Positions 14,263-30,450 of a DNA stretch of 38,416 bases are shown here, piece after piece. The notes beneath the pieces were generated by a model that saw only the letters and a program-made list of their open reading frames with translations, did no database searches and was not told the origin of the DNA. Position numbers and translations under genes: made by a program. Positions within the stretch are counted from its first letter, which is position 1, and the number at the start of each line of letters is the position of its first letter. The stretch is from Actinomycetes bacterium (GTDB taxonomy: Bacteria; Actinomycetota; Acidimicrobiia; Acidimicrobiales; RAAP-2). The stretch lies in assembly GCA_021831125.1 (NCBI GenBank), contig JAKBNI010000010.1:1-38416 (forward strand), written 5' to 3'.

Positions 14263-14562
14263 TCAGTCGGCCGACGACGCGCCGGCCGTGGGAGCGGTCG
14301 CGGCCGGCGCGGGCGACGGCGCGGCCTCGGCGGCCGGGCTCGGCGAGGTCGCGCCCGACGTGGCGCCGCTCGACGAGGACCCCGACGGTCGGCTGTCGGT
14401 CTTGTAGAAGCCGCTGCCCTTGAAGACAATCCCCACCGAGGAGAAGACCCGGCGCAGCGGCCCCCCACAGCGCGGGCAGTCGGTCAGGGGAGCGTCGCTG
14501 AAGCGCTGGACGGCCTCGTGGCGCTCGCGGCAGTTCTGGCACTCGTACTCGTAAGTGGGCAT
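14263..14562 (-). CDS. FmdB-type zinc-ribbon protein
   Basis: Small protein of the FmdB/putative regulatory zinc-ribbon family, whose function is not established. The first 60 residues have the family pattern: MPTYEYECQNC, then DCPRCGGPLRRVFS and a KGSGFYKTD segment, giving two Cys pairs for one zinc. After residue about 60 the protein turns into a Ser/Ala/Pro-rich tail with no fold expected. I chose ATG 14562 over the upstream in-frame start at 14577 because MPTYEYEC is the conserved N-terminus and GAGG lies just upstream. It is divergent from moaC. Confidence 0.85.
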   Translation of the reverse strand: MPTYEYECQNCRERHEAVQRFSDAPLTDCPRCGGPLRRVFSSVGIVFKGSGFYKTDSRPSGSSSSGATSGATSPSPAAEAAPSPAPAATAPTAGASSAD

Positions 14563-14589
14563 GGGACCTCGGGACACGACGACCCGAGC

Positions 14590-14595
14590 AGTGTA
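14590..14595 (-). promoter_or_regulatory. -10 box for the zinc-ribbon gene
   Basis: Minus-strand TACACT predicts a start near 14583 and a leader of about 21 nt that contains the GAGG ribosome site. It lies 29 bp from the divergent moaC -10 box. Confidence 0.4.
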
Positions 14596-14624
14596 CCGGT
14601 CACGGACGGGGAAACGGCCGTGGG

Positions 14625-14630
14625 TAGCAT
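14625..14630 (+). promoter_or_regulatory. -10 box for moaC, leaderless
   Basis: TAGCAT ends 6 nt before the ATG of moaC at 14637, with no ribosome site. Confidence 0.5.
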
Positions 14631-14636
14631 GGCGCG

Positions 14637-15140
14637 ATGGACGACTTCCGCCAGCTGCGTCGGCCCGGCGGGGCCGGGGCCTTCGGGCGCGAGATCGGTC
14701 CGAGCGAGGTCAGCGCACGCCGCGCCCTGGCCCGCTGTCGGGTGACGATGCTGCCCTCCACGACCGAGGCCGTCGCCGCCAACACCCTGAACAAGGGGGA
14801 CGTCCTGGCGACCGCCCGGGTGGCGGGTATCCAGGCGGCCAAGCACGCGGCGACGCTGCTGCCCATGGCCCACCCGGTCCTGGTCGGCAACGTCCACGTG
14901 AACTTCACCATCGCCGACAGCCACATCGAGGTCGAGGCGGCCGTCGACACGGTCGACCGCACCGGAGTGGAGATGGAGGCCCTGACGGCCGCCACCGTGG
15001 CGGCGTTGACGATCTACGACATGTGCAAGTCGACGGACCGCACGATGACCATCGAGCAGGTGGCGCTGTGGGAGAAGTCCGGTGGTCGCTCGGGCACGTG
15101 GCGTCGCGACGGGTTCGGCGACGGCGCGAACGGCGCCTAG
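14637..15140 (+). CDS. moaC: Cyclic pyranopterin monophosphate synthase (molybdenum cofactor)
   Basis: Acts after MoaA to convert 3',8-cyclo-7,8-dihydro-GTP into cyclic pyranopterin monophosphate, the first pterin of molybdenum cofactor synthesis. The 167 residues carry NKGDVLATARVAGIQAAK, TGVEMEALTAATVAALTIYD followed by MCK, and the C-terminal KSGGRSG. The usual PLCHP motif reads PMAHP here: the catalytic-region histidine is kept but the neighbouring Leu-Cys is changed. No other moa gene is in the window. The start is ATG 14637, six nucleotides after a -10 box. The C-terminal tail after KSGGRSG is short and Gly-rich. Confidence 0.93.
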   Translation: MDDFRQLRRPGGAGAFGREIGPSEVSARRALARCRVTMLPSTTEAVAANTLNKGDVLATARVAGIQAAKHAATLLPMAHPVLVGNVHVNFTIADSHIEVEAAVDTVDRTGVEMEALTAATVAALTIYDMCKSTDRTMTIEQVALWEKSGGRSGTWRRDGFGDGANGA

Positions 15141-15163
15141 TCCGCCCTCGACCCCGGGGCGAG

Positions 15164-15169
15164 TACCCT
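15164..15169 (+). promoter_or_regulatory. -10 box for pafBC, leaderless
   Basis: TACCCT ends 6 nt before the GTG at 15176, which is why I choose that GTG as the pafBC start. Confidence 0.5.
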
Positions 15170-15175
15170 CCATCC

Positions 15176-17140
15176 GTGGCCGCCAAGGAGACCGCCGTCC
15201 GCGCGGGCGTCGAGCAGAGCCGTGAGAGGCTCGTCGCGCTCGTCTTGCTGCTCCAGCGCGCCTACCAGCGCGGGCCGCTCACCCAGGAGCAGATCGTCCG
15301 GGAGCTGACCGTCGACGAGTTCCCGGCCTCGGCCCGGGGGCCGCGCAAGGTACGGGCCTACGAGGGCAGTGACGTCGCGGTGCGCCAAAAGTTCGAGCGC
15401 GACAAGGCCCGGATCCGGGACCTCGGGTTCGAGATCGAGACGGTGACCCTGCCCGACGGCTCGATCGGCTACCGGATCGACCCGGCCAGCGCGTACGCCC
15501 CGGCCATCGCCTTCACCCCGGACGAGGCGCGGGTCGTGCGCCTCGCCCTCGCCCTGTGCGGGGTCGGGCGTCGCGGTGTCTTCTCGCTCTTCAGCGACGC
15601 GCCGTCGTTCGACGGCGGGCGTGAGGCCTCGCCCTACCTGACGCCCATCCTGCGCGCGCTCCACCTGCGCCGGGCGCTGGCCTTCGACTACCTCTCGTCG
15701 ACCAACAAGACCCGCCGGGTCGAGCCCCTCGTGCTCGACGTGATCCGCGGGGTGGGCTATCTCGTGGCCCGGGTCCAGGACGCGAGCGAGATCAAGGGCT
15801 ACCGGCTCAACCGCATCACCTCGATGCCCATCGTGCTCTCCGACGCCTTCGGGGTCGACGAGGAGACGCTGGCCCTGGCGCGCGCCTGGCGCCCCGAGTT
15901 CGCACGCCCCCCCAAGCCGCTGCGCGTCGTGGTGGCCACCAACGAGGCCTACGCCGAGCTCCTGGCCCGCCAGTACCCTGCGGCCGAGCTGGACCGCCAC
16001 GGTGACGGCGCCGTCGACGTGGTCATCGACTTCGACTCCCCGCGCAACGCCCTGCGCTTCGTCCTGGAGGGCGCCGACCGGGTCCGCCTGCGCTCGCCCA
16101 AGTCGCTGCGCACCGAGCTCGCGCAGTGGCTCGACGGGGTCAACCACGCCGCGGTCCCCGCGATCGAGCCCGGCCGGTTCGAAGCTGCCGGGGGTCAGGA
16201 CGTCCTCGGCCAGACCCTTCAGCTCCTGCACGCGGTCTACGCGAGCGAGGACGGGCTGCGCGTCACGGAGCTGGCGGCGCGCTTCGGCCTCGCCCCGGCG
16301 CACGTCCGGCTGATCATGGATCGACTCGTGACCATGGAGCCGCTCGTCGACACGACCGACGGCACCGACACCTTCCCCGCGCACGTCATCAAGGAGTGCG
16401 ACGACTGGGACGACGAGGAAAACGACGACTCCCTCTACCGTGCCGACTTCTCCGACCTCCCCCACGGGGCGCCCGAGCCGTCGCCGCTGATGTGGCGTGA
16501 CCTCTACGAGCTCAACATCGCCCTGCGAGAGGCCTCGCGAGTGTACGACGAGCCCTCGGTCCACTCGGCCATCGCCAAGATCGAGGCCGCGGTCGCCGCG
16601 CCGGTGCAGGTCGAGTCCGCGAGCGAGAGGCTGCTCGGCGACGTCGAGCGCGCCGTCGAGGAGCACGCGCAGATCAAGGTCGAGTACCTGAGCGCCGCCT
16701 CCGGGGAGGTGTCGGTCCGGGCGATCGAGCCCCGCGAGATCCGGGTCCTCAACGGACACGCCTACGTCCGGGCGTACTGCACGAGCCGCGAGGGCTGGCG
16801 GACGTTCCGGGTGGACCGGGTCAACGCGATCCTCGCCACGTCGCCGGTCACGTCCGTGCGGCCGGCCGACCCCGTGGCGAACTGGCTGACCCAGGTCGGC
16901 GAGGAGGGTCATCAGGTGGTGGTCGTCGTCGAGGCCGGCCAGCGCTGGCTGTTCGAGCCGCTCCCCGGCGCGCGCTGGCTGGCTCTGCCCGACGGGCGCC
17001 ACGCGGTGACCTTCCGGGTGGGGGACCCCGTGACGCTCGACCGGCTGATGGTCCAGGCCGGTCCCGGCGCCGCCGTCGCCTCCGCGGAGCTGCGCGACGC
17101 GGGCCGCGAGCTCGCCCGGCGCATCGCGGCGACCCTGTAG
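15176..17140 (+). CDS. pafBC: Fused PafB-PafC WYL-domain transcriptional regulator
   Basis: Tandem WYL-domain regulator matching PafB joined to PafC. In mycobacteria PafBC activates LexA/RecA-independent DNA-damage genes. The 654 residues contain an N-terminal winged-helix segment (RLVALVLLLQRAYQRGPLT, then KFERDKARIRDLGFEIETV), a first WYL domain about 170-320 (EIKGYRLNRI), a second helix-turn-helix region about 340-400 (RVTELAARFGLAPAHVRLIM), and a second WYL domain about 500-600 (WRTFRVDRVNAI). Many actinobacteria encode PafB and PafC as two genes. The start GTG 15176 lies behind a -10 box. The relaxase-like gene follows after only 26 bp with its own Shine-Dalgarno, so they may be cotranscribed. 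No proteasome or pup gene is nearby. Confidence 0.88.
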   Translation: MAAKETAVRAGVEQSRERLVALVLLLQRAYQRGPLTQEQIVRELTVDEFPASARGPRKVRAYEGSDVAVRQKFERDKARIRDLGFEIETVTLPDGSIGYRIDPASAYAPAIAFTPDEARVVRLALALCGVGRRGVFSLFSDAPSFDGGREASPYLTPILRALHLRRALAFDYLSSTNKTRRVEPLVLDVIRGVGYLVARVQDASEIKGYRLNRITSMPIVLSDAFGVDEETLALARAWRPEFARPPKPLRVVVATNEAYAELLARQYPAAELDRHGDGAVDVVIDFDSPRNALRFVLEGADRVRLRSPKSLRTELAQWLDGVNHAAVPAIEPGRFEAAGGQDVLGQTLQLLHAVYASEDGLRVTELAARFGLAPAHVRLIMDRLVTMEPLVDTTDGTDTFPAHVIKECDDWDDEENDDSLYRADFSDLPHGAPEPSPLMWRDLYELNIALREASRVYDEPSVHSAIAKIEAAVAAPVQVESASERLLGDVERAVEEHAQIKVEYLSAASGEVSVRAIEPREIRVLNGHAYVRAYCTSREGWRTFRVDRVNAILATSPVTSVRPADPVANWLTQVGEEGHQVVVVVEAGQRWLFEPLPGARWLALPDGRHAVTFRVGDPVTLDRLMVQAGPGAAVASAELRDAGRELARRIAATL

Positions 17141-17166
17141 GCGACCGTTGGGCCCGGGAGGGCCCG

Positions 17167-18240
17167 ATGATCCGTGTCCTGGCGCGGCGCAGCCTGGATG
17201 TCACCTACTTCACCCGGGACCCGGCGCGCGAGCTGGAGGGCGTGCGCGAGGGCGGCCCGGGGTGGTGGCTTCGAGGAGGGGGTGATTCGACGGACCCGGC
17301 GCGCGTGGCGCGGGTGCTCACGGGCACGGCCCGGGCGAGGACCGTCGGCTACGACCTGGTGGTCGCGGCGCCCCGGGTCGTGTCGGTGCTCGTCGCGCTC
17401 GACGAGGGGCGCGCGAACGGCGTCGTCGCCGCGCACCGGGTCGCGGTGGGCGCCGCGATCGACTACCTCGAGGACCGGGCGCTCGTCGTGCGCGAACGGA
17501 CGGGGGGCGAGACGCGCACGCGCGCGGCACGGTGGGAGTCCGCGGTCGCCTTCACCCACGGGGTCAACCGCCACGCGGAGCCCCATCTGCACGACCACGT
17601 CCTGGTGGGCGCTCGGCCCGAGGGCGCCGACGTGGTGCTCGACGCCCGAGCCCTCGTCGCCCACACGCGCGCGGCCGACGCCCTCTACCGCGCGACCCTG
17701 CGCTACGAGGTGGCGCGGCGCGCCGGGTTCGAGGTGTGGCGCTCCTTCGCAGGGGTCGAGCACGTCAGCGATCTCGACGAGGGCTACCGTGCCCTGTGGC
17801 CCGGCCACCACGCGGCGCGCGGCGAGAAGGCCCACTGGGAGCGTGGGGAGGTCGTTGAGCGCTGGCGGGCCGAACGTCGACGGGTCGTGCTCGTGGGCGC
17901 GCGCCCCGCACCGACTCGTCACCGCGCCACGCTCGACGAGCACCGCTTCGCGGGCGCCTTCGAGGGACGCCTCGACGTGGCCCGTCGCCACGTCGTCGCG
18001 GCGTGGGCCGACGCCGCCGTGTTCGGCCAGCGCGCGCCCGAGGTGGTCGCCTCGGTCGACGTCCTCTACCCCGAGCTGCGAGGCGGACGCGGCGTGCACG
18101 AGGTGACCGTGGGCGTACCGCGGGCGCGGATGCTCGAGCGCGTGGCCGAGCGCGGCGCGCGCCCCCTGGAGCCGGCGGCGCTCGACGCGTGGTCTCAGCG
18201 CTCGCGGTCCCGTGAGAGGGCGCGCGAGCGCTCCTGGTGA
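17167..18240 (+). CDS. MobF/TrwC-type relaxase domain protein, helicase-less
   Basis: HUH-type single-strand endonuclease domain like the N-terminal part of conjugative relaxases of the MobF family. The 357 residues show YDLVVAAPRVVSVLVAL (61-77, matching the family's DLTFSAPKSVSVL), an AHRVAVGAAIDYLED helix, and the metal triad in HAEPHLHDHVLV with His 140, 142 and 144. The likely nicking tyrosine is Tyr14 in DVTYFTRD; only one Tyr is present there, unlike TrwC. Full MobF relaxases approach 1000 residues because of a C-terminal RecD-like helicase, which is absent. The C-terminus is Arg-rich and its last 46 bp overlap the convergent coupling-protein gene. ATG 17167 is preceded by GGGAGG at 17156-17161. 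Whether it still nicks DNA is unknown. Confidence 0.78.
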   Translation: MIRVLARRSLDVTYFTRDPARELEGVREGGPGWWLRGGGDSTDPARVARVLTGTARARTVGYDLVVAAPRVVSVLVALDEGRANGVVAAHRVAVGAAIDYLEDRALVVRERTGGETRTRAARWESAVAFTHGVNRHAEPHLHDHVLVGARPEGADVVLDARALVAHTRAADALYRATLRYEVARRAGFEVWRSFAGVEHVSDLDEGYRALWPGHHAARGEKAHWERGEVVERWRAERRRVVLVGARPAPTRHRATLDEHRFAGAFEGRLDVARRHVVAAWADAAVFGQRAPEVVASVDVLYPELRGGRGVHEVTVGVPRARMLERVAERGARPLEPAALDAWSQRSRSRERARERSW

Positions 18241-19526
18241 CGGGCGAGTCGGGGGTCGGCGTAGTAGGGCGTGAGGGCGACCCAGCGCAGGTCGTTCGTC
18301 GCCGAGAGCGCGAGGGCGTGGCCCGGGCGCCCGCGCCCGACGTCGCTCGCGGTGACCCTCGTGCGCTCGACCCACCCGCTCGAGAGGCTCCGCGCGCGCC
18401 CTCGATGGTCGCGGTGCACCGTGGGGTTCGCGACGAACTCGCGCCCGCCGAGGCGCTCGAGCGCCTCGAGCGTCGCGCGGTCGGCGATGCCCGGGAAGAC
18501 CAGGGTGGAGGGGAAGAGGGAGAGGAGGCCGTCCGCGCCCGCGCCCCACCGGGCGCGGGCCTGGCTGAGGTCCTGTAGGCAGGCGAGGGTCACGACCCCC
18601 TGGCCCCCGCCCTCGGAGACGATCGAGCCGAGCCGCGGCAGGGGCGCGACGTTGGCCAGCTCATCGAGAGCGAGCAGGAGCCGGGCGCCCTCGTGGTGGC
18701 GCTCGTAGGTGGCGTGGACGACCTCGTCGATCAGCCCGACCACGAGCGGCGTGGCCACGGCCTGGTGACGACTGGGCGAGACCACGTGGAGGTGGTGGCC
18801 GCCTTCGAGGAACGCGTCGAGGTCGAGGGGTGGCTCGAGGGACGCGGCCCGCGCCGCGTCGGTGCGCAGTCCGGCGAACAGCCCGGCCGCGGTCGACCAG
18901 ATCCCCGAGCGCTCGCGTTCCTCGGTGGCGAGCACGCCGCGCAGGGTGGCCACCGAGGCGTGGCGCTCCCCGTGGTGGGCGACGAGGGCGTCACCGAGCT
19001 CGCCGACCGAGCGCTCGTCGACGCGGGTCGCGAGTTGGCCGAGAGGCTCGTCGCGCAGCGCGGCGCCGTGGAGGAGGGGGGCGAGGAGGGCCGCCGCTCG
19101 CTCGCTCCAGTGGTCCTCGGCACGCTCCACGCTGCGTCGTGAGACGTCGAGCAGCGTGCGCGCGACGAGGACCGCGCCGTCCCATCGACGGGCCTGGCGC
19201 AGTGGCGAGTAGCCGACGCGCGTAGCGCCCTCGGGCGTCGCGACGGTGCCCGAGGGATCGAACAGGAGTGTCGCGACGTCACGACGTGCGCGGGCCATCG
19301 TCGTCACGACGTCGTCCTTTGTCGAGGTGACCACGCACGCGTCGGTGGTCATCAGGAGATTCGGGATGATGATCGAACTCGTCTTGCCACTACGCGTGGG
19401 TCCGAGGACGAGTGTCGAACGCTGCGCGCCACTCGTCGCGTCGCCGTGCGCGCCGCGACCGAGGTAGACACCGTCGAGTTCGACCACGCACCCATCGGTC
19501 GGAAAGTGGTGCGAAATGCTTGACAC
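18195..19526 (-). CDS. TraG/TraD/VirD4-like coupling ATPase, lacking membrane anchor
   Basis: ATPase of the type IV coupling-protein family, which in conjugation docks the relaxase-DNA complex at the secretion channel. The 443 residues start with GVYLGRGAHGD and Walker A GPTRSGKT at 42-49, followed by IIIPNLLMT and TSTKDDVV. Walker B is LLLALDEL at about 283-290 with ANVAPLPRLGSIVSEGGGQG, then LQDLSQARARWG, all typical of this family. The usual N-terminal pair of transmembrane helices is missing, since the P-loop comes at residue 42. The start is GTG 19526; no good ribosome site is seen, so it is uncertain. The gene converges with the relaxase-like gene and overlaps it at the 3' end. No VirB/Tra channel gene, integrase or att site is visible around it. 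Confidence 0.82.
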   Translation of the reverse strand: MSSISHHFPTDGCVVELDGVYLGRGAHGDATSGAQRSTLVLGPTRSGKTSSIIIPNLLMTTDACVVTSTKDDVVTTMARARRDVATLLFDPSGTVATPEGATRVGYSPLRQARRWDGAVLVARTLLDVSRRSVERAEDHWSERAAALLAPLLHGAALRDEPLGQLATRVDERSVGELGDALVAHHGERHASVATLRGVLATEERERSGIWSTAAGLFAGLRTDAARAASLEPPLDLDAFLEGGHHLHVVSPSRHQAVATPLVVGLIDEVVHATYERHHEGARLLLALDELANVAPLPRLGSIVSEGGGQGVVTLACLQDLSQARARWGAGADGLLSLFPSTLVFPGIADRATLEALERLGGREFVANPTVHRDHRGRARSLSSGWVERTRVTASDVGRGRPGHALALSATNDLRWVALTPYYADPRLARHQERSRALSRDRER

Positions 19527-25657: not shown

Positions 25658-27523
25658 CTACTTGAAGTAGAAGTACTCCGGGTTGAAGTTCTGGAGCGGG
25701 TTCGGGGTGAAGCCGATGTCGTGGACGCCCACGTTCTTCTTCACCTCGCTCGGCGTGAAGGCGTTCGGCTGGAACAGCACCGGCACCTGCTGCATGAAGT
25801 ACTTGGCGTACTGGGTCAGGTTGGCCGTACCGAACGTCGTCGTCTTGATGATGGCCGTCATCTTCGGGTTGTTGTAGTCACCGATGTTGAAGCTGGCGCC
25901 CGGGACGAAGCCCCACTCACCCGAGGGGTAGTAGTCCGGAGCGTAGATCCAGCCCGCACCCCAGTCACACACGTCCCAGTTGGTGGCGTGGGCGGCGCAG
26001 TCGGAGATCACGTTGTTGAACGGCTCACCGATCTGCATCGTCTTGATGCCCAGCGTGTTCCAAGCCGAGAGCATGGTCTCCACCGTCTGGGTGAAGGCCG
26101 GGGTGCCCGTGCCGTACTCGAAGCGGATCGTCAGGCGGTTGCCCTTCGAGATGCCCTTACCGCAGTCCGAGGGCGCGGTGCCCGGCTTCTCACAGAGCAG
26201 CGCCCCGTGGACCTGCTTCCAACCGTGCGAGGCCAGCATCGACGCCGACTTCTTCAGGTCGTAGTTGTACATGTTCTTCGGAACCTGGCCGATGGACGCC
26301 GAGGCGGTCGGGGGCAGCGGGCTCCAGGTCGGCAGGCCGTAGCCCTTGTCGAGCTTGGCGATGATGCCGGTCTGGTTCACCGCGTACTGCAGGGCCTGGC
26401 GGATGTACAGCTGGTCCAGGTACTTGGCGAAGGGGTTCTTCGGGTTGAAGTTGTACTGGGCGTAGTCCATGCCCCAGTCACCGGCGCTCGCAACGATGTT
26501 GTAGTTGTTCGAGATGGCCGACCAGTTGGGACCGACCTTGCCCGGAGCCGGAGCCGGCTTGCTCAGGTACGACGTGTCGATGAACCCGAGGTCGACCAGA
26601 CCCGCGCGCAGGTCGTTGGCCTCGGCCTGGGCCGAGGTGTAGGCCTTGAGCTGAACCTCAGCGACCGAGCTCTTCACCGGGCCCGCGTACTTCGGGTTCG
26701 GCACGAACGACGCGTTGCCGAGGTTGTCGAACGACTTGAGCAGGTACGGGCCGTCCGTGCCGGACTGCCAGAACGTGTTCGTGTAGTTCGAGGTCGTCTG
26801 GGCGTACTGCTGCAGGTAGGTCACGACCGCCTTGCACGCCGTGTCCGTGGCGGCCGCACCGTAGGTGCCGGTCGCGCACGTCGAGGTCGTGTTGGCGCCG
26901 CTCACGTCCCAGGCGTCCGGGAGGGGGGTGATCTCCGACAGGTAGTTGTAGGTGATCCAGCCCGGGTTGACCGCGGCCTTGAAGTTGATCACCACGGTCT
27001 TGGCGTTCGGCGACGAGACCGAGCTCACCTGGTCGGGGATGCCGTAGCCCGGCACGTAGCCGCAGTAGGCCGACGGGTCCGAGTGGTACAGGTTCAAGAA
27101 GAACAGCACCGACTGGGCGTTCACGGCCTGGCCGTCGTAGAAGCTGTAGTTGCCCATGTTGATGGTCACGGTCTTGTTGCCGTTGCTAAAGACCGGGGCC
27201 GCCGCCAGCGACAGGCCGTTGGGGGCCTGCGCACCGACCTGGGGCTTGTCAACGATCGCCGCCGAGTTACCAAGTCCGAACCAGTACAGCGGCCGGTACA
27301 TGAGGTCCTCGAACTGGTTGATGTTGTCAACCGAGAAGTAGGTGCAACTCATATACGGGAAGATGTAGTTCGGGGCAGCGCCCGGACCCTCCGCAGCGAC
27401 CAGGGTGCCACTTGGTGCCGAGGCCCCACTGTTGGCGACACCGGTGGCCAGCGCACCGAGCGCCACCGCACCGGCGGCTGCACCAACGGTGACAAGCAGC
27501 CGTAACTTTCGTGTAAATCTCAT
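25658..27523 (-). CDS. Extracellular solute-binding protein, family 5 (peptide type)
   Basis: Captures the importer's substrate outside the membrane. The 621 residues have a Sec signal peptide (MRFTRKLRLLVTVGAAAGAV, likely cleavage after an Ala around residue 28-36), but no lipobox cysteine, so it is not an obvious lipoprotein. Family 5 features include INQFEDLMYRPLYWFGLG, VLFFLNLYHSDPS and a C-terminal half with YIRQALQYAVNQ. Paired cysteines (for instance C-x13-C and C-x9-C segments) suggest disulfides. It is a paralogue of the next gene upstream. ATG 27523 has a GAGGAAG ribosome site. A probable -10 box lies at 27588-27593, and a T-tailed terminator follows. Confidence 0.9.
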   Translation of the reverse strand: MRFTRKLRLLVTVGAAAGAVALGALATGVANSGASAPSGTLVAAEGPGAAPNYIFPYMSCTYFSVDNINQFEDLMYRPLYWFGLGNSAAIVDKPQVGAQAPNGLSLAAAPVFSNGNKTVTINMGNYSFYDGQAVNAQSVLFFLNLYHSDPSAYCGYVPGYGIPDQVSSVSSPNAKTVVINFKAAVNPGWITYNYLSEITPLPDAWDVSGANTTSTCATGTYGAAATDTACKAVVTYLQQYAQTTSNYTNTFWQSGTDGPYLLKSFDNLGNASFVPNPKYAGPVKSSVAEVQLKAYTSAQAEANDLRAGLVDLGFIDTSYLSKPAPAPGKVGPNWSAISNNYNIVASAGDWGMDYAQYNFNPKNPFAKYLDQLYIRQALQYAVNQTGIIAKLDKGYGLPTWSPLPPTASASIGQVPKNMYNYDLKKSASMLASHGWKQVHGALLCEKPGTAPSDCGKGISKGNRLTIRFEYGTGTPAFTQTVETMLSAWNTLGIKTMQIGEPFNNVISDCAAHATNWDVCDWGAGWIYAPDYYPSGEWGFVPGASFNIGDYNNPKMTAIIKTTTFGTANLTQYAKYFMQQVPVLFQPNAFTPSEVKKNVGVHDIGFTPNPLQNFNPEYFYFK

Positions 27524-27738
27524 TACTTCCTCCCCACGGAGTCGTTTCGACCCCGCCTCGATTCACCACGTCGGTGACTGAAAGGTCACGATAGCCCAGC
27601 GTCGGGCGCGACTACGTGGCGGGAACTGACAGGGGCTTGAGAAAAGACCCAGTGACCGTTCACCGCGCCCAGGTGGCGCCCGGTGATGGATGAATAAAAC
27701 TTCCGCTAGTGAGGAAAATCGCACTCGGCGGGGCGACT
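27524..27738 (-). other. Leader/promoter gap between the two binding-protein genes
   Basis: About 215 bp, less GC-rich than its surroundings, with no ORF. It contains the putative promoter and about 58-nt leader of the downstream binding protein. On the minus strand a TTTT run near 27716, after a weak 4-bp stem, could be a poor terminator for the upstream gene. I see no clear riboswitch fold. Confidence 0.35.
27588..27593 (-). promoter_or_regulatory. Possible -10 box for the first binding-protein gene
   Basis: Minus-strand TATCGT would give a start near 27581 and a leader of about 58 nt carrying the GAGGAAG site. No -35 is recognised; other starts in this AT-richer gap are possible. Confidence 0.35.
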
Positions 27739-29418
27739 CTAAGTGAAGTACCAGTACTCGGGCGTAAGGACCCCCGTCGGGCAGGGCCGCAGGGGGACGG
27801 CCCCCGCCAGCCTCGTCGAGACCTCCCAGAGGGTGTCGGGCGCGGGGAGGTAGAGGACGGGCAGGGTCTGGGCCATGTAGGTGCCGTAGCCGGAGAGCTC
27901 GCCGCGGCGGATCTCGACGAGAGCCAGCCAGTGCGCGAGGACGGGATTCGCGAAGCCGCCGAGGCTGGTCGAGGGTGACGTCGCGTAGAACGGGTCGCCC
28001 GAGGGGTAGTAGTCGCCCAGGTACGCCCACCCCTGGCCCGACCAGCACAGGTCGGTGGCCGTGGCCGACGCGCAGTCCGCTGCCACGTTCGAGCCGGTGT
28101 CGAAGGTGACGCTGAGGGACACCCCGAGGGTGGCCCAGGCGGCCTTGACGACAGCGAGCTCCTGGTCAAGGGCGGGATTCCCGCTCGCCACCACGAGGCT
28201 GAGGGCGAGGGTCTGCCCCGCGGTGACCCCGGCGCCGCACTGGTTCGCCCCGGTGCCCGGGTCGGTGCAGGTCGCCGTGGCGCCCGCGAGGCTCCAGCCG
28301 TGGCTCGTGAGGGCCCGTCGGGCGCCGGCGGGGTCGCCCGGCGTTGCGCTGACCGTGGCGAGGGCCGCGGGGGTCGAGGGGGGGATCGGGCTCGCGCCCC
28401 CGGCGGCCCGGCCGTGGAAGACCGTTGCGATCAGGGACTTCTGGTCGATAGCCTGCTCGAGGGCGCTGCGCAGGTAGCCCTGGGCGACGAGGGGACCCCC
28501 AGAGTCGGTGGCCGCGAAGTTGACCTCGATCCCGTCGAACCCCCAGAAGGGCGCGGCGTAGAGGGTGTCGTGGGTCGAGAGGGCCGGCACGTTCGCCGAG
28601 CCCGCCGGGATCGCCGAGCCCGGGACGGTCCCCACGTCGAGCGTGCCCCGGGCGAGGGCGTCCTCCTCGGCGGCGTAGGAGCTGAAGGCCACCAGGCGCA
28701 CTACGCCGACCCGCGGGCGCACCGGGCCCGAGTAGCGGGGGTTGGCGCTGAAGGTGGCGTCGCCGGACCCGTCGAAGGCGGTGAGCAGCCACGGGCCGTC
28801 GACGCCCCCCTGCCAGAAGGCCGAGGTGAAGCCGGCGGCGGTGGTCCCGATCCCCTGGAGGTAGGCGAGGACCTGGCGACAGGCGGCCAGCGTGCGCGCG
28901 GCGCCGTAGGTCCCGTTCGCGCACGCCGGTGCGGGGCCGGTCGCCGAGCGCGACCAGGCGGGGTCGAGGGGCACGACGTTGGCGAGGTCGTTGCCCATCA
29001 ACCAGTCCAGGTTGACCCGGGTCGAGAAGGTCAGGGTCACGAGGTTCCCCTGGACCCGCACGGCTCGCAGGCCCGCGGGCACGCCCCGCACCGCGACCGC
29101 GTCGCAGAACGCGCTCGGGTCGGCCTCGGCCAGGTTCAAGAAGAACAGGACGCTCGTGCCGTCGACCGGGCGGCCGTCGGCGAAGTGCCAGCCGCGCATC
29201 GCGAAGCTCACCTGGGTGGTCGTCTTGTTGGTCGTGGGCGTCGTCGCCGGCGAGAGGGCGGCCTGGTAGCCGGGCGATCCTGAGAGGCCGTACCAGTAGA
29301 GGGGGCGATAGAGGAGGTCCTGGAACTGCTGGACGTTGGCGAGGGTGTCCTGGGCGCACCCCTCGAGTGGGAAGATGCTGGTCGGAGGGGCTCCGGGGGT
29401 CTCGCCCACGGAGAGCAC
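27739..29418 (-). CDS. Second extracellular solute-binding protein, family 5; true start probably upstream
   Basis: Paralogue of the downstream binding protein: shared blocks are QQFQDLLYRPLYWYGL, SVLFFLNLAEADPSAFC, TSAFWQGGVDGPWLLTAFDG and a PEYWYF C-terminus. The first ATG/GTG/TTG in frame is GTG 29418 (559 residues), which leaves no signal peptide. Upstream the same frame stays open and, read from an ATT at 29502 (or CTG at 29493), encodes a perfect signal peptide: a basic QPLR, then a hydrophobic IAFAAAALVAALVVA and a small-residue end (APRAGAAG). An AAAGG element sits 7 nt before the ATT, and a -10 box at 29531-29536 is well placed. The cysteine pairs match those of the paralogue. Coordinates given are the conservative start. 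Confidence 0.85.
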   Translation of the reverse strand: MLSVGETPGAPPTSIFPLEGCAQDTLANVQQFQDLLYRPLYWYGLSGSPGYQAALSPATTPTTNKTTTQVSFAMRGWHFADGRPVDGTSVLFFLNLAEADPSAFCDAVAVRGVPAGLRAVRVQGNLVTLTFSTRVNLDWLMGNDLANVVPLDPAWSRSATGPAPACANGTYGAARTLAACRQVLAYLQGIGTTAAGFTSAFWQGGVDGPWLLTAFDGSGDATFSANPRYSGPVRPRVGVVRLVAFSSYAAEEDALARGTLDVGTVPGSAIPAGSANVPALSTHDTLYAAPFWGFDGIEVNFAATDSGGPLVAQGYLRSALEQAIDQKSLIATVFHGRAAGGASPIPPSTPAALATVSATPGDPAGARRALTSHGWSLAGATATCTDPGTGANQCGAGVTAGQTLALSLVVASGNPALDQELAVVKAAWATLGVSLSVTFDTGSNVAADCASATATDLCWSGQGWAYLGDYYPSGDPFYATSPSTSLGGFANPVLAHWLALVEIRRGELSGYGTYMAQTLPVLYLPAPDTLWEVSTRLAGAVPLRPCPTGVLTPEYWYFT

Positions 29419-29530
29419 CCCGGCCGCGCCGGCGCGCGGGGCCGCGACGACGAGGGCGGCGACCAGGGCGGCCGCGGCGAACGCTATCCGCAGGGGTTGA
29501 ATGGCGGGGCCTTTCGGTCGGGTCGCCCCA

Positions 29531-29536
29531 ACCCTA
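29531..29536 (-). promoter_or_regulatory. -10 box for the second binding-protein gene
   Basis: Minus-strand TAGGGT predicts a start near 29524, about 22 nt before the ATT at 29502. It is just after the stop of the upstream epimerase gene. Confidence 0.45.
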
Positions 29537-29544
29537 CCCAGGCC

Positions 29545-30450
29545 CTAGGCGAGCGCGGCGCGCACGACGGCGTCGAGGGTGGGGTGCGCGAAGGCGAAGC
29601 CGGCCGCCTCGAGCCGACCCGGGAGCGCGCGCTGGCTGGCGAGCAGGAGCTCCTCGGCCATCTGGGCGCCGAGCGCGAGGCGCAGGGCGAACGACGGAAC
29701 GGCGACGAGGCCGGGTCGGTGAAGGGCCCGAGCCAGGGCGCGGGTCAGCTCGGCGTTGGTGGCCGGGGTGGGGGCGACGAGGTTCAGCGCGCCGCCGAGG
29801 CGGTGGTCGAGGGCGAAGAGCGTCGCGCGGACGTGGTCGTCGAGCGAGATCGGGCTCACCCACTGGGTCCCCGGACCGAGGCGTCCGCCCAGGCCGGCCC
29901 GAAAGAGGGGGAGCTGACGGGCGAGGGCGCCCCCGCGCGCGTCGAGGACGATCCCGGTGCGCAGCACGGCGACCTCGCCCCCGGCCACGGCGTAGCCCTG
30001 GGCCGCGTCCTCCCAGGCGACACAGACGTCGGCGAGGAAGCCCTCACCGGGGCCGGACGTCTCGTCGAGGATCTCGTCCCCGCGCGAGCCGTAGTAGCCG
30101 ATGGCCGACGCGCTCACGAGGTGGGCCCGCGAGTCGGCGCGCGCCAGGAGCTCGGCGACAAAGCGCGTCGCGTCGACCCGCGAGTCGCGGATCGCGCGGC
30201 GGCGGGCCAGGCTCCAGCGTCGCTCGCCGATGCCCGCCCCGGCCAGGTTCACCACGGCGTCGAGCCCTCCCAGGCGCCGGGCGTCCTCCGGGGCGATCGC
30301 TCGGGCGGAGGGGTCCCAGGGGATCGTCGGGCGCGTCGAGGGGGCCGACCCGGGCCGGGCGAGGACGACGACCTCGTCCCCGCGCGCCTCCAGCGCACCG
30401 GCGAGGGCGCGCCCGAGCAGGCCGCTCGCCCCGGTCAGGCCGACGCGCAC
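29545..30450 (-). CDS. TIGR01777-type NAD-dependent epimerase (SDR family)
   Basis: Extended-SDR protein of the YfcH/TIGR01777 family; the physiological substrate of this family is not known. The 301 residues show the Rossmann motif VGLTGASGLLGRAL at the start, the AVVNLAGAGIGERRWS segment that defines the subfamily, SASAIGYYG with the catalytic Tyr region, and a C-terminal DUF1731-like part. I choose GTG 30450, preceded by GGGAGG at a 4-nt spacing, which overlaps the end of the hydrolase gene by 16 nt. The frame is open much further upstream, but only as a shadow of that hydrolase. Confidence 0.85.
   Translation of the reverse strand: MRVGLTGASGLLGRALAGALEARGDEVVVLARPGSAPSTRPTIPWDPSARAIAPEDARRLGGLDAVVNLAGAGIGERRWSLARRRAIRDSRVDATRFVAELLARADSRAHLVSASAIGYYGSRGDEILDETSGPGEGFLADVCVAWEDAAQGYAVAGGEVAVLRTGIVLDARGGALARQLPLFRAGLGGRLGPGTQWVSPISLDDHVRATLFALDHRLGGALNLVAPTPATNAELTRALARALHRPGLVAVPSFALRLALGAQMAEELLLASQRALPGRLEAAGFAFAHPTLDAVVRAALA

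Follow-up and report, generated by a model that had tools for sequence, protein, structure and literature searches.

The window analysed here (38,416 nt in all) is one contig of a 2.0-Mb MAG (87% complete, 139 contigs), whose kin, judged by name, are 'Actinomycetes bacterium' MAGs at close range and Acidimicrobiaceae farther out. Two solute-binding protein genes, SBP1 and its paralogue SBP2, adjoin two permease genes, and a gene for a fused ABC ATPase faces them; upstream of SBP1 there is an epimerase-like gene, which carries a DUF1731 domain, as well as an alpha/beta hydrolase gene. SBP1 scored 70.5 bits against Pfam SBP_bac_5, for which the curated cut-off is 32.4, and so belongs to the family. 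As described in an initial annotation of this DNA, the neighbouring paralogue has an ordinary ATG start and a signal peptide; its Shine–Dalgarno (SD) sequence (GGGGAGGA) is strong. Between the two genes there is a terminator-like hairpin with a T-rich tail (27650–27665, reverse strand; 0.5 expected by chance in the region), and SBP1 may therefore form its own transcription unit. Elsewhere in the window, genes for a WYL-domain protein, a TrwC-type relaxase and a T4SS coupling protein (14555–19526) look like part of an integrated conjugative element. The coding features considered below are as follows.

27739–29502, reverse strand: SBP1, family 5 extracellular solute-binding protein gene, 587 codons from the proposed start ATT (Pfam SBP_bac_5, E = 1.9e-19; open frame; full-length orthologues)
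25658–27523, reverse strand: SBP2, paralogue of SBP1, ATG start, strong SD (Pfam SBP_bac_5, E = 8e-33)
29545–29547, reverse strand: stop codon of the epimerase-like gene, 14 codons ahead of ATT in the SBP1 frame
29425–29502, reverse strand: signal peptide M(I)QPLRIAFAAAALVAALVVAAPRAGA, predicted to be cleaved at A-x-A, ahead of AG (from sequence)

Reading frame and export signal of SBP1

The SBP1 frame follows the TAG stop at 29547–29545 and runs through 14 codons, none of them ATG, GTG or TTG, before reaching ATT at 29502–29500. Read from this ATT, the frame gives IQPLRIAFAAAALVAALVVAAPRAGA followed by AG, by inspection a textbook Sec signal with an A-x-A site (n-, h- and c-regions likewise assigned by inspection: one Arg in the n-region, a hydrophobic core and an A-x-A c-region). 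The hydrophobic core and an AGA/ADA motif are kept in all six genomes compared, namely the source genome and five other, separately assembled MAGs whose orthologues share 82–87% amino acid identity with SBP1. Neither SBP1 nor SBP2 has a lipobox cysteine at the end of its signal peptide, unlike typical binding proteins of monoderms, which are lipoproteins with such a cysteine.

The first canonical start in the frame, GTG 29418, lies downstream of the signal peptide, and inspection indicates that the export signal is present only with a start upstream of this position. The frame thus bears out the earlier observations that no ATG, GTG or TTG precedes the signal and that a product begun at GTG 29418 would lack a signal that the same frame encodes upstream. 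Because GTG 29418 is the first canonical start of the window's open reading frame, one could take it as the real start, with a product devoid of signal peptide and an untranslated frame upstream; this has next to no probability, since the position is GCG in all five of the other orthologues and has no usable SD (a comparative refutation), and conservation extends over the upstream frame, the signal peptide of which is also found in homologues. The most divergent orthologue (G092, locus L037) does have an in-frame GTG, 10 codons ahead of ATT, but this codon overlaps with the TAGGGT −10 box and would hence be upstream of the implied transcript start.

Homologues beyond this clade (approximately 33–49% identical over the matched stretch) were classified automatically by the start preceding the hydrophobic stretch. 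The 98 distinct start regions so obtained comprised 91 ATG and 7 GTG or TTG, with none lacking a canonical start, which makes the ATT clade a derived exception; in the simplest history, the ancestor of the six would have exchanged a canonical start for ATT in a single event.

Conservation of the ATT codon and its surroundings

Four features around the proposed start, all on the reverse strand, bear on where translation begins.

29500–29502, reverse strand: proposed ATT start codon, ATT in 6/6 orthologues, with the best SD geometry
29510–29515, reverse strand: SD GAAAGG, pairing over six bases with the 16S 3′ end of congener G092 (...CACCUCCUUUC); invariant
29482–29520, reverse strand: invariant 39-nt block, translation initiation region (six-genome alignment)
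29531–29536, reverse strand: −10-like box TAGGGT, conserved in 6/6, with TANNNT placement as in neighbouring genes

When orthologues were compared at the start codon, ATT, SD and spacer proved identical in all five (six of six genomes in total), with no ATG or GTG at this codon, which supports the earlier proposal of a rare non-canonical start. The alternative offered with it, that a former start codon was recently mutated to ATT or misread in sequencing, is refuted by the presence of ATT in five other genomes. The canonical starts outside the clade do imply that ATT replaced one at some point, but the codon is shared by six separately assembled genomes that differ at many surrounding sites, so that an error or recent event can be dismissed for practical purposes.

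The ATT codon sits in an invariant run of 39 nt (−18 to +20, the A of ATT being position 0) that extends from just before GAAAGG to the end of codon 7 and is the longest invariant stretch in SBP1 plus the 900 nt upstream. When SBP1 codon columns were shuffled, 0.16% of trials produced a run of at least 39 nt (P about 0.0016 for a maximum run ≥39), and the first 21 bases were all invariant in 0.14%. Third codon positions differ by 10–27% between pairs and tree length is 1.73 substitutions per site, which indicates that background evolution is not slow; first and second positions change more slowly (89–96% identical, versus 73–90% for third positions, across the six genomes), indicating that the SBP1 protein is maintained by purifying selection. 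In this 72% GC genome there is pressure away from A/T codon endings: a third base A or T is kept in all six genomes at only 5 of ~870 codons (SBP1 and the upstream gene), and three of these five are SBP1 codons 1, 2 and 6. Where all six encode the same residue, a third-position T found in any genome is invariant in 3 of 83 cases, and an A in 2 of 64. Of the Ile codons in eight window genes, 2.3% are ATT, a codon found nowhere else in SBP1 in any of the six genomes; an ordinary internal Ile here would be expected to be ATC. The rare ATT start has probably been kept by selection, as judged from a single evolutionary origin, since only one clade carries it.

Nucleotide conservation of this kind could also mark an operator or RNA regulatory element instead of an initiation region, which would leave the true SBP1 start open: the 39 invariant nt cover synonymous positions of codons 1–7, and a GGG-rich stretch lies upstream of the block. 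We regard this explanation as highly improbable, because the ordinary ATG of SBP2 sits in a similar invariant run (33 nt, −16 to +16), no fold is common to all six genomes, and Rfam returned no credible match (one sub-threshold chance match on the other strand). Part of the conservation could nevertheless reflect a regulatory site rather than initiation. A G-quadruplex motif upstream was considered and set aside, as motifs like it are found 12 times across the window and the first run of G is missing from one orthologue.

The 16S 3′ end (taken from congener G092) is GGAUCACCUCCUUUC, with whose CCUUUC the six bases of GAAAGG pair; the distance of 7 nt initially reported between AAAGG and ATT is correct. 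The predicted SD duplex is −7.4 kcal/mol for ATT (7-nt spacer) and −2.6 for CTG 29493 (codon 4), which is 16 nt from the SD, so that only the first of the two start codons initially put forward, ATT 29502 and CTG 29493, is strongly favoured. More broadly, a start at some other non-canonical codon (CTG 29493, CTG 29541 or the GTT/GTG codon at 29532) is improbable. Near-cognate CTG is a known type of start codon and the 29532 codon is GTG in G092, but that codon is GTT in five of the six genomes, falls within the −10 box and has no SD at a suitable distance, CTG 29541 is upstream of the box, and none of these codons explains why ATT has been retained.

Ribosomes might instead be fed into the signal peptide by readthrough of the upstream stop or by a frameshift from an upstream start. 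The epimerase stop is in frame with SBP1 in all six genomes and, in the window, a 15-codon TTG–TAG mini-ORF in another frame overlaps the SBP1 start, but the stop and its context vary (TAG-GGC versus TAA-CCC; TAG in five genomes, TAA in G032), G092 has lost the TTG of the mini-ORF, in a fusion product the signal peptide would be buried, and the SD is conserved at ATT, all of which make this origin very unlikely indeed.

As to transcription, the −10 box previously placed at 29531–29536 is present as TAGGGT (29536–29531), and a consensus promoter scan called no sigma-70 promoter at SBP1. TANNNT boxes that are conserved in relatives also stand 6–7 nt before the starts of kgd (31309; TAGTCT, 7 nt before GTG), the hydrolase gene (31241; TAGGTT, 6 nt before GTG) and the permease gene (25543; TAGAGT, 6 nt before ATG 25543). 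This arrangement suggests that these three transcripts may be leaderless, and the permease probably starts at ATG 25543 rather than TTG 25549. Applied to SBP1, the box-to-start spacing of the neighbours points to a transcript start at about A29523 and a leader of about 21 nt; from this putative promoter, the leader would hold the SD and leave out the GTG of G092. Leaderless initiation of SBP1 itself was rejected, since the implied transcript does not begin with a start codon.

Proposed initiation at AUU and expression of SBP1

On the strength of these comparisons, we propose, with a probability of about 0.86, that initiator tRNA-fMet begins SBP1 translation at AUU 29502, to which a short leader, probably beginning near 29523, would guide the ribosome through its conserved SD GAAAGG (7-nt spacer), and that the product would be a secreted family-5 binding protein of 587 residues, carrying a cleavable signal peptide and probably made in low amounts. 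SBP1 is probably scarce relative to SBP2 because AUU is a poor start, disfavoured by IF3, whose discrimination against it would yield little SBP1. Low expression, which we infer, fits the moderate SD, the rare codon and published measurements on AUU. The SBP1 duplex is weaker than that of SBP2 (−7.4 versus −11.4), and SBP1 evolves faster (82–87% versus 91–94% identity among relatives); both are as expected for the less expressed paralogue, although they are no proof.

Non-canonical starts are known from several bacteria. The E. coli gene for IF3, infC, starts with AUU and its Streptomyces counterpart with AUC, and IF3 discriminates against such starts (PMC9410913, PMC5472188); like SBP1, infC has a conserved AUH start behind an SD, but it is autoregulated and encodes the factor itself, whereas the SBP1 product is a secreted part of a transporter. 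Streptomyces sigR, from the same phylum, likewise has a conserved non-canonical start: its GTC, under repression by IF3, limits one of two linked products and so determines their ratio. The sigR gene differs from SBP1 in the codon, in a very strong SD (AGGAGGTG), in encoding a sigma factor and in having been tested experimentally (PMC5472188). In Staphylococcus, cvfC1 (AUU) and ccpN (AUA) have natural non-canonical starts, and in reporters the output from a conserved AUU start was roughly 10% of that from AUG (PMC13009471). The AUU of cvfC1 is, as in SBP1, conserved with an SD within the genus, but cvfC1 and ccpN, experimentally tested Firmicutes genes for regulators or small proteins, have an extended SD (PMC13009471). 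Extended SDs have been reported at other conserved non-canonical starts (PMC13009471, PMC5472188), whereas the SBP1 SD is moderate and, in the MFE fold, partly taken up in structure, both of which count against the proposal; an extended strong SD is common at IF3-controlled starts, without defining them, and GAAAGG is not of this type. AUU also starts E. coli pcnB (PMC9410913) and Borrelia pncA/BBE22 (PMC13398362), which encode enzymes without a signal peptide, unlike SBP1. The pncA start had been missed, leaving a truncated annotation without an essential N-terminus (PMC13398362).

For SBP1, an AUU start means that gene finders limited to ATG, GTG and TTG would miss the export signal and record a secreted protein as cytoplasmic. 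To our knowledge, very few AUU starts conserved across species have been described, and SBP1 is a new case of this known but sparsely populated phenomenon. Our literature searches found no AUU-started ABC transporter binding protein and no report from Actinobacteria matching the combination of non-canonical start, leaderless transcripts and SD. The locus also illustrates that non-canonical starts can be revealed by comparative evidence alone.

Control of SBP1 by IF3 would be in keeping with what is known of AUU starts and is possible on that analogy; for E. coli infC fidelity mutants, a rise in output of 3- to 15-fold has been reported (PMC5472188). Coupling of SBP1 translation to IF3 level or ribosome state, as for infC (AUC) in the same cell, is a tentative and rather unlikely extension; if true, initiation-factor supply would tune one of the transporter's two tandem solute-binding proteins, and the IF3-governed gene set in this lineage would include nutrient uptake. 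Across the order, infC starts with ATC or, in a few cases, ATA (loci L058–L087, L083 being that of the window's own genome), and by inspection nearly all congeners examined have ATC behind a strong SD, AAGGAG, so that ribosomes of this genus do use AUH starts.
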